Assembly: GCF_011684115.1 (NCBI RefSeq)
Contig: NZ_JAADJV010000001.1
Location: 2,108,001 to 2,172,000, forward strand
Length of the DNA stretch: 64,000 bases
Direction: 5' to 3'
DNA from: Rahnella aceris
Lineage (GTDB): Bacteria > Pseudomonadota > Gammaproteobacteria > Enterobacterales > Enterobacteriaceae
The position numbers were made by a program, and so were the translations under genes. Numbering within the stretch: position 1 is the stretch's first letter; each line of letters starts with the position of its first letter. The notes under the pieces are model-generated. The model was not told the DNA's origin. It did no database searches and worked only from the letters and a program-made list of their open reading frames with translations. Positions 61,320 through 64,000 of the stretch are shown here, piece after piece.

Positions 61320-61355
61320 AATTACTGAGGAGCATAAAAACCCTCCTCAGTAATT
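61320..61355. repeat. 13-bp inverted repeat after cycA
   Basis: Perfect arms AATTACTGAGGAG / CTCCTCAGTAATT with a 10-base loop, 46 bases past the cycA stop. It lacks a T-run, so if it ends cycA transcription it does so as an atypical terminator; otherwise it may protect the mRNA 3' end. The rest of 61356-61554 is AT-rich and should hold the promoter of the next gene. Confidence 0.7.
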
Positions 61356-61554
61356 ATCTCTCATTAATTATTAATCTCTTTTTTATTATAAAGGCGCTGC
61401 AAATCCTTTGCGGTACTTTCATTTAAATATTTAAATCATAAACATTCACTAAAAAATATAATTTCCTCTGCGTGATTATTTATGATACACGCCCGCCTCA
61501 TACCTTAGTTAGCATTAAATTGAATTTAATGTCGATTAGCGTGAGGTCTATATT

Positions 61555-64000
61555 ATGTGTTCTGCAAAGCAAGATGTACAACCAGAAATTATCATTCAGG
61601 ATAATGACCCCTCTATTATTTATACCGGAAACTGGACCCGATATACCGGACGAGCATACAGCGATGATGGTGCAAGTATGGCGTTGTATGATAACGGTAA
61701 GTATTTTGAATACACATTTACCGGTTCCGGCATTGGGTATTACAGCGAAGGAAATACCGATCAGGGCGAAATAGATTTTTATCTTGATGGCGTGTTACAC
61801 GGTACGGCAACAACCAAAACTTCAACGCGCCAGTACAGCGATCTTATTTATTATATTACCGACATATCGCCCGGAGAACATACTTTTAAAGGGGTGAAAA
61901 AAAACGGATCCTGGATGCTGCTTGATCAGCTTAAAGTGTATAACGATGCCGCGCTTACCGCTGAAGTAGAGCAATTTTTGGGCGCAGGCAGTGAAGGGAC
62001 AGCACGGCTTCAGTTCAATCAATCGCTGGATAGCCAAAGCGGAACTGAACCGGGAAATTATCAGTTGAACAACGGAGCAAGCGTTATCTCCGTCACTTTA
62101 AGCAATGACCGAAAAACTGCTGACCTCACCATTACCGGGCTGACCACGCAAACGGATTACACACTCACGTTGAGCCAAATCAGCAACCAGATTCTGACCA
62201 CCACCGTTCAAAATCAGACCTTTACGCTAAACTACACTGCACTTCCTGCGGAACAGGTTTATGACGACCCGGTCGCCGACATTGTATATGCCGGTAAGTG
62301 GACGCACAGCACGAACCGTACACAAAGTATCTTTTATCACACCACCTCGTATACCCAGAGTAATAACTCTGCGACCTTTACACTAAACTTTATTGGTACC
62401 GGTATTTCTTATATTGCCGAAAGCAGTAGCGATCAGGGTGATGTTGAAATTTATATTGATGGTGTGTCTCAGGGCAGAATAAGCACCTGGTCTTCCACCC
62501 ATCTGGACAGCCATATTCTGTATCAAAAGGTGGATTTACCGTTTGGTTCACACACGATTCAGGGAATTAAACGTTCGGGGTCTTATGCACATCTGGATGC
62601 ATTAAAAGTCTACAATGCCGGTGATCTTGAAATTGTTGAAACCACTACCGACAGTAATAACAATATTCTGGTGACGTTTAACCAGGCTCTGGATTCAACG
62701 AGTGCGTTAACTCTCACTAACTCTGTGCTGGATAATAGTGGCGTTATTCAAAGTGTCGCGCTGGATGATTTAAAAACCACACTGACACTTAATGTGCCTG
62801 ACTTACAAACTGGAATTCCCTATACCCTGACTTTCCACGGATTTAAAAATGAGATCCTGACGAAAGATTTTGCCGATATTCAGGCCACGTTTACTTACAA
62901 CCAGGGCATGAAGTATTACTACACCTTTGATGATGAAACTGACGGGGCTTTCTTAGAGACCATTAATAACCAACGTAGTGCAATAAGCCAGGGACAAGCC
63001 CCCTCGCTGGTGACGGCAAAGCTCAACAATGGTATCGATTTTGCCAGCGGGCAGCCGGGTTATATTGATTTAGGCGTGCTTGATTGTTTGCAATATTCCG
63101 CCTTTACCGTGGAAGCCTGGATATACCCGCGTTCAACAGCGATGAGCATGATCGTCAGCCAGGATACGCGTAATAACAACAACCAGCGCTGGCAGCTTTA
63201 CACCCAGGACAATCAGCTGGTTTGCACGATGTCGAATGATACCAACAGCACCTCATTTACTTTAAAAACCAAGTCTTTTATTCCGCTGAATGCCTGGACC
63301 CACGTCGCCATTTTGCGCCAGGGTGATGAATATGCCCTGGCCGTTAACGGCAATATGGCGATGACAGGCGGCAGTAACGTGGTGCAAACGAACGTCACCA
63401 CTTCGGTGAAAGTGGGCGGACGGCTGGATACCAACGGCGCGGTGACGGATGCTTTCGACGGTATCATTGATGAAGTTAAATTCTTTGATTCACAGATAAG
63501 CCCGCAAACGTTGAGCGGGCATTATCGTCAACTGGCCGACACGAACTTCAACCTTCAGGCGAGTAACGGCACGCTGAAAGCTGCGTTTGTTCACCCGCAA
63601 TCTGTCGAGCCTGTGCTGAGTGATTTCCGGACACACCTCAAAGTGAACAGTGAAATGCGCGTGGGTTTGCCAATAACTGGTTTTGTGTGGGATGCGGCAA
63701 GCAATACGGCAACACTCTCTTTCACGCCACTCGAACTTGCGGCGGTTGAACAAAATATCATCTTCACCGTGCGTTATCGGGAGTTGCCTGTCGATGCGGA
63801 TTTCTCGCTGGAACCGACCACGATAGCCGCGCCTTCCCTCTCGTCACTGGTATTAAACGGTTCGTTACTGACGCGCGAAATTTTACGCCCGGATTATCTT
63901 TTTACTGACCCCGGCGGTTTTGCAGAAAATGGCAGTGAATACCTGTGGGAAGTGGCGGGCAGTACGACTGGCCCATTCAGTACCATCAACGGGTTGCATA
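61555..64000 (+). CDS. large modular protein with two repeated binding modules and a LamG-like domain (partial)
   Basis: The frame is open from ATG 61555 to the window end, at least 815 codons; an in-frame TAG at 61537 fixes the 5' limit. TGAGG lies 8 bases before the start. Begins MCSAKQDVQPEIIIQD with no signal peptide. Modules at about 21-125 and 243-345 are diverged copies (FTGSGIGYYSE / FIGTGISYIAE, then DQGEIDFYLDGV / DQGDVEIYIDGV and a closing LKVYN). Ig-like linkers follow each. A LamG/concanavalin-like domain runs about 452-650 (YYTFDDETDG, YIDLGVLD, FTVEAWIYPR, WTHVAILRQGDEY, GIIDEVKFFD). The rest is unclassified. Probably a surface or secreted glycan-binding protein, perhaps type I secreted with a C-terminal signal outside the window. 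Confidence 0.8.
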   Translation, partial: MCSAKQDVQPEIIIQDNDPSIIYTGNWTRYTGRAYSDDGASMALYDNGKYFEYTFTGSGIGYYSEGNTDQGEIDFYLDGVLHGTATTKTSTRQYSDLIYYITDISPGEHTFKGVKKNGSWMLLDQLKVYNDAALTAEVEQFLGAGSEGTARLQFNQSLDSQSGTEPGNYQLNNGASVISVTLSNDRKTADLTITGLTTQTDYTLTLSQISNQILTTTVQNQTFTLNYTALPAEQVYDDPVADIVYAGKWTHSTNRTQSIFYHTTSYTQSNNSATFTLNFIGTGISYIAESSSDQGDVEIYIDGVSQGRISTWSSTHLDSHILYQKVDLPFGSHTIQGIKRSGSYAHLDALKVYNAGDLEIVETTTDSNNNILVTFNQALDSTSALTLTNSVLDNSGVIQSVALDDLKTTLTLNVPDLQTGIPYTLTFHGFKNEILTKDFADIQATFTYNQGMKYYYTFDDETDGAFLETINNQRSAISQGQAPSLVTAKLNNGIDFASGQPGYIDLGVLDCLQYSAFTVEAWIYPRSTAMSMIVSQDTRNNNNQRWQLYTQDNQLVCTMSNDTNSTSFTLKTKSFIPLNAWTHVAILRQGDEYALAVNGNMAMTGGSNVVQTNVTTSVKVGGRLDTNGAVTDAFDGIIDEVKFFDSQISPQTLSGHYRQLADTNFNLQASNGTLKAAFVHPQSVEPVLSDFRTHLKVNSEMRVGLPITGFVWDAASNTATLSFTPLELAAVEQNIIFTVRYRELPVDADFSLEPTTIAAPSLSSLVLNGSLLTREILRPDYLFTDPGGFAENGSEYLWEVAGSTTGPFSTINGLH

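Follow-up and report, generated by a model that had tools for sequence, protein, structure and literature searches.

The open reading frame at 61555–64000 (+ strand), which stays open at the right edge of the window (the whole 64,000-nucleotide stretch analysed, G000:C1:2108001-2172000), is the 5′ part of a 1617-codon gene whose product is, from its predicted domains, an enzyme and not an adhesin: a two-enzyme polysaccharide hydrolase. Our best reading, held at a probability of roughly 0.55, is that of an extracellular-type polysaccharide hydrolase that would fold in the cytosol and be released by a type 10 secretion system (T10SS) or lysis-cassette route, supplied here in trans; the activity, substrate and export of the protein are what we infer. 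This reading is favoured by the conserved residues of the GH144 and GH29 domains, the binding modules, the missing signal, the linkage in two relatives and the candidate cassette in the genome. In the proposed scheme the CBM35-like and LamG modules would hold a glycan, the GH29-type domain would remove fucose-like residues and the GH144 domain would cut β-1,2-glucan. The protein, having no Sec or Tat signal, would fold in the cytosol and leave by way of a holin and a peptidoglycan hydrolase, in type 10 secretion that may or may not be lytic, as described for Serratia ChiB and ChiC, with a chitinase-type cassette on another contig acting in trans in this genome.

Gene limits and selection

The query DNA matches its own genome once, at itself, and the complete gene (L002:4555-9408, 1617 aa) extends 2.4 kb to the right of the window. 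An in-frame TAG stop (61537–61539, +) lies five codons before the ATG, bearing out the preliminary description, which had held upstream extension to be blocked, and a GAGG resembling a ribosome-binding site stands at 61543–61546 (+). This arrangement of GAGG and upstream in-frame TAG is identical in a second genome of the genus (G001), whose copy is 91% identical and has the same surroundings. A signal-bearing start in another frame was considered and rejected: read by eye, the other two upstream frames are open for 3 and 37 codons and show no clear signal. The left neighbour is a permease gene, 3′ of which the sequence can be read as a perfect 12-bp inverted repeat of terminator-like form (61321–61354, arms 61321–61332 and 61343–61354, +); a consensus match downstream of the gene (L002 9504-9525) is a candidate terminator, and together these two features suggest that the gene is probably transcribed alone. 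The right neighbours, like the left one identified by eye from their ORFs, are a minus-strand membrane protein, a TetR-type regulator and rut-type genes, then importer-type ABC genes.

Comparing the G000 and G001 copies gives dN 0.050 and dS 0.469 (dN/dS about 0.11); the gene is under purifying selection. Synonymous divergence is uneven, with dS of 1.0 over residues 1–450 and 0.15–0.23 over residues 451–900, and the low value in the middle suggests exchange of a mid-gene segment. GC3 is 0.55 in the gene and 0.68–0.72 in three neighbouring genes, in line with acquisition of the gene.

Domain architecture

The amino-terminal half alternates CBM35/CE2-N-like modules with Ig-like linkers, followed by LamG, GH29-type and carboxy-terminal GH144 domains. 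A structure model and its fold matches, which cover residues 1–355, assign module 1 (61579–61944, +, about residues 9–130) to a CBM35/CBM6/CBM36-like jelly roll, where a domain search places the CE2_N family, and module 2 (62242–62619, +, about residues 230–355) to a CE2 N-terminal/CBM35-like jelly roll. Linker 1 (61945–62241, +, about residues 131–229) is Ig-like, nearest to a domain of the S-layer protein SbsC; sequence comparison of the linkers identifies linker 2 (62620–62919, +, about residues 356–455) as its duplicate (39% over 75 aa, E 5e-10). The two modules are genuine duplicates as well (38% over 126 aa, two-sequence E 4e-27), and a LamG/concanavalin A-like domain follows at 63058–63510 (+, residues 502–652; PF13385, E 1.4e-25). 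Duplicated modules, a LamG domain and a carbohydrate-binding architecture had all been proposed for this gene beforehand, and all three stand, with the duplication now extending to the linkers. The stretch between the LamG and GH29-type domains (residues 661–855, beginning in the window at 63535–64000, +) is Ig-like by eye only.

It had been suggested that the part of the gene beyond the window may hold repeats and a secretion signal; what lies there is a GH29-type and a GH144 domain, with no RTX motif. The GH144 domain (residues 1203–1609, PF10091) scores 219 bits against a cut-off of 27 (E 6e-65) and matches solved structures of six distinct sequences at E 1e-101 or better (5gzh, E 1e-108), and the protein ends a few residues past it. 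In CpSGL, the available part of PMC12102758 gives E211, E142, D135, D139, F268 and Y330 as catalytic and clan residues. All are kept, D135, D139, E142, E211, F268 and Y330 corresponding to D1315, D1319, E1322, E1386, F1439 and Y1503 here.

The GH29-type domain (match to PF01120 over residues 903–1197, right of the window) scores 37.1 bits against a curated cut-off of 25.2. Its family profile matches fucosidase structures, among them 6hzy, to which the WFDG region can be aligned. In all 13 alignment rows D1050 and E1098 are invariant; they are candidates for the GH29 catalytic residues (nucleophile Asp and acid/base). An HWG region is usual in GH29; HFLPNY stands where it would be expected, which places the domain in a divergent subgroup. 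The same profile also matches three α-1,4-endofucoidanase sequences, so that a fucoside is only a candidate substrate.

Relatives and domain shuffling

A protein search returned 18 relatives. P0002 (Enterobacterales) is 74% identical, of equal length and aligned throughout, and P0003–P0005 (2378–2455 aa; P0004 and P0005 labelled Salmonella) share most of residues 9–1205. In these three, GH144, canonical GH29 and F5/8C modules stand first, and domain order has therefore been shuffled. The protein of Salmonella plasmid NZ_CP034699.1 (2467-aa ORF) is 46% identical to the query over 1206 aa. Within the GH144 domain, identity is 58% to Flavobacterium P0007 and 27–30% to the Salmonella plasmid, G329 and G058 proteins, pointing to a separate history of this domain; in Flavobacterium, P0007–P0011 are GH144–GH29 fusions in the opposite order.

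The gene is present in 2 of 14 genomes of its genus. Of 392 family genomes sampled, four match the query with an E value of 1e-30 or lower and eight match P0004, the latter including G207, G108 and G357, whose matches are signal-less single-domain GH29 genes near transporter-like genes. The sample holds five carriers (G000, G001, G058, G329 and G060); the G060 relative is broken, reduced to one N-terminal fragment and one of GH29 type (L042:7822-9666). E. coli genomes gave no DNA match to the first 4000 bases, and a first scan of genome_contigs gave no relative. Among plasmids, 91 records match; in the 20 listed it is mostly the GH144 domain alone, and only two, both from Salmonella, extend over more of the protein, one of these copies being annotated and matched in two pieces. 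A phage origin was considered and rejected, viral_contigs holding no relative and phage records matching the GH144 domain only, in two unannotated records.

A shared lack of an export signal

We scored each amino terminus by its best 11-residue Kyte–Doolittle mean within the first 45 residues, a simple measure of hydrophobicity rather than a trained predictor. The query reaches 0.55, and all eight intact enterobacterial members scored lie at 0.55 or less, without a signal peptide (the query, P0001–P0004, the L004 plasmid protein, G329 and G058), even though they differ widely among themselves. P0001 stands for the G001 copy, the first residues being the same. The plasmid protein, taken from the L004 ATG, gives −0.08, and its database entry P0005, with a start further downstream, gives 0.61. 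The amino terminus is hydrophobic in all 12 relatives scored from Bacteroidota and Paenibacillaceae (1.83–3.55); against these values the query has no signal-like stretch, in agreement with the preliminary description. These 12 are L019, L020 and L022–L030 (11 of 21 loci) plus P0006; the other ten loci (L018, L021 and L031–L038) were left out for unclear starts, fragmentation or distance; of these, L018 has a visible signal at its start and L036 does not. P0010–P0012 and P0013–P0018 lie outside the scoring. The Flavobacterium fusions P0007–P0009 are signal-less as deposited (3 of 3 scored), which extends the trait beyond Enterobacterales.

Holin and peptidoglycan hydrolase genes

The available parts of PMC5778951, PMC13284979, PMC10109510 and PMC9527704 describe a holin and a peptidoglycan hydrolase with large enzymes nearby as a T10SS, with Serratia ChiB and ChiC as cargo without signal peptides and Serratia ChiA and Cbp21 as using Sec; those of PMC5778951 and PMC13284979 have some T10SS cargo of Salmonella and Serratia using Sec. 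On plasmid NZ_CP034699.1 the relative comes after a LysR gene; its other flank encodes two holin-family proteins (PF16931 and PF05449), a peptidase of the M15 family (PF13539) and a signal-less fibronectin–chitinase protein (chitinase structure match, E 1e-42); NZ_CP034710.1 is a near copy of this region. In G329 a co-oriented ChiX-type M15 gene (5opz, E 6e-36) stands upstream of the relative, with 38 bases between its end and the likely ATG of the relative; it overlaps only the longest possible ORF. Adjoining are a LysR gene that shares 31% identity with that of the plasmid, and a membrane protein that is weakly holin/anti-holin-like (phrog_126, E 2e-5; no Pfam match). By predicted gene content, both loci have a T10SS layout of holin or holin-like protein, ChiX-type M15 peptidase and LysR regulator. 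Two related signal-less proteins of 422–425 aa after the plasmid chitinase-like gene (L004:3954-6958) are candidate cargo; they have no Pfam match, and PHROGs and NCBIfam (the latter on one of them) named no better family.

The gene in G000 is not beside holin or peptidoglycan hydrolase genes, nor is that in G001, and no holin/M15/LysR cassette was seen within the 20 kb read around the G058 member. Searches of G000 with PF16931, PF05449 and PF13539 gave no match, and neither did the plasmid holin; the best match to the plasmid M15 was at E 0.44. On another contig than the gene, G000 has a GH108 hydrolase (C2:121973-122221). Its locus also encodes a LysR protein, a protein of 148 aa with a weak regulator-like match, an 88-aa LydA-type holin-like protein and a signal-less 693-aa GH18 chitinase, a gene set resembling the Salmonella chiA locus as presented in the available part of PMC10109510. 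The LysR gene shows only a weak resemblance to those of the linked loci. At 88 aa the holin is short beside the ORFs of 123 and 141 aa in G005 and G009, covering positions 7–75 of 78 in PF16083 but only 23–100 of 107 in phrog_785, and in G001 only the later half of this holin type is readable in frame.

GH108 occurs in 8 of 14 genomes of the genus, and a ChiP-like GH108 in 50 of 392 family genomes. Two of the five carriers, both of this genus, have the ChiP-like GH108, one has a linked ChiX-like gene and two have nothing found, M15 lying outside the search there; these counts are too few to prove a T10SS link. Elsewhere in the genus, G010 has a stand-alone cassette between PTS genes (L054:9166-10885), with a LydA-type holin, a ChiX-like M15 and a signal-less PIG-L deacetylase-like protein, which is a candidate small T10SS. 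In G009 (L017:1625-10139) a PF16931 holin lies beside a LysR gene 28–30% identical to those of the linked loci; no M15 was seen at this locus, and signal-less Ig-type (Big_1) and 707-aa proteins are near. Reading of ORFs placed the holins of G012 and G013 and the M15 genes of G001, G004 and G007 in phage-like clusters, and these leads went no further.

Competing explanations

The protein might instead remain in the cytosol and act on imported or endogenous oligosaccharides, its binding modules being inherited from secreted ancestors. Such a role would suit the lack of a signal and the position after a permease gene, and the single-domain GH29 genes of G207, G108 and G357 offer a parallel. We nevertheless consider it unlikely, given at least four sugar-binding or Ig-like modules of secreted-enzyme type under purifying selection, the holin and peptidoglycan-hydrolase genes linked to two relatives, and the permease's own terminator-like repeat. 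Export could also follow from ordinary lysis of a subpopulation through prophage or tail-cluster lysis genes, with no dedicated cassette. Phage lysozyme genes are indeed present, both in a P2-like tail cluster on C5 and in a prophage-like region on C3, and the available description of the Yersinia entomophaga T10SS has lytic release in a cell subpopulation; we give this route little weight, as it does not account for the position of two relatives next to ChiX-like peptidase and regulator genes, away from evident phage clusters. The C5 cluster (L051, G000:C5:5001-24000) carries lysozyme and spanin-like genes beside pheA/tyrA-type genes, with no head genes in the stretch read, and is possibly an R-type tailocin.

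That a decaying gene has simply lost its signal peptide is improbable. Signals in the distant relatives, the broken G060 copy and the Salmonella plasmid copy in two pieces would fit decay, but the G000 and G001 copies are both intact, with dN/dS about 0.11, and the signal is absent from all eight widely different intact members scored. The type I secreted giant adhesin of the preliminary description finds a likeness in the modular β-rich amino-terminal half without a Sec signal, and we hold it to be very improbable indeed: the gene ends in a GH144 enzyme, the protein has 0 GGxGxD motifs, and the neighbouring ORFs on both sides, read by eye, include no ABC/HlyD/TolC or other type I secretion genes. 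What had been put forward as a candidate uncharacterised system is better described as an extracellular-type enzyme with relatives linked to type 10 secretion genes. Release of a cytosol-folded hydrolase by a T10SS or lysis-cassette route is itself weakened by the absence of a cassette beside the gene in G000, G001 and G058, the short holin, the broken G001 holin, the weak G329 holin-like match and the few carriers, as well as by the signal-less Flavobacterium fusions and the use of Sec by some T10SS cargo. As a tentative generalization, for which we claim somewhat less than even odds, there may be an enterobacterial family of giant signal-less polysaccharide-degrading enzymes (about 1.3–2.5 thousand residues) with shuffled GH29, GH144, CBM35-like, LamG and F5/8C modules, cytosol-folded and released by phage-derived T10SS through their own cassette or a chitinase cassette in trans.

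Comparison with known systems

Our literature search, which mostly excluded subscription papers, found no paper joining ‘type 10 secretion’ with ‘fucosidase’, ‘GH144’ with ‘holin’, or ‘GH144’, ‘GH29’ and ‘fused’. If our main reading is true, T10SS cargo would extend beyond chitinases and toxins to β-1,2-glucan- and fucose-degrading megaenzymes, and a very large, folded, assayable enzyme would become available to probe whether holin-based export is lytic and what its size limit is. Predicted fucose removal and β-1,2-glucan cleavage in one chain would also point to a substrate so far undescribed.

The GH144 domain aligns over its whole length with endo-β-1,2-glucanases (CpSGL, PDB 5gzh; 4gl3, 3eu8 and 4qt9), keeping their catalytic and clan-defining residues, but it is here the carboxy-terminal domain of a 1617-aa signal-less protein with GH29-type, LamG and CBM35-like domains. 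Similarity to GH29 α-L-fucosidases (PDB 9pnj, 6hzy and 2wvv) lies in the PF01120 match over cut-off and the aligned WFDG aspartate region, with the query forming a divergent subgroup. The same GH29-type domain occurs in Bacteroidota P0006 (LamG–GH29), which also shares LamG, and in Bacteroidota and Paenibacillaceae L019–L030; unlike the query, the 12 scored have a hydrophobic, signal-like amino terminus, and P0006 has no GH144 domain listed. Serratia marcescens ChiB and ChiC and the Salmonella chitinase loci likewise encode large, folded, signal-less glycan hydrolases, and the query's relatives adjoin holin, peptidoglycan hydrolase and LysR genes. The query differs in being no chitinase, in its size class of 1.2–2.5 thousand residues and in not lying beside a cassette in this genome. 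The Salmonella plasmid ‘α-L-fucosidase’ (NZ_CP034699.1) and the G329 and G058 proteins share modules and the lack of a signal with the query but put canonical GH29, F5/8C and GH144 first.
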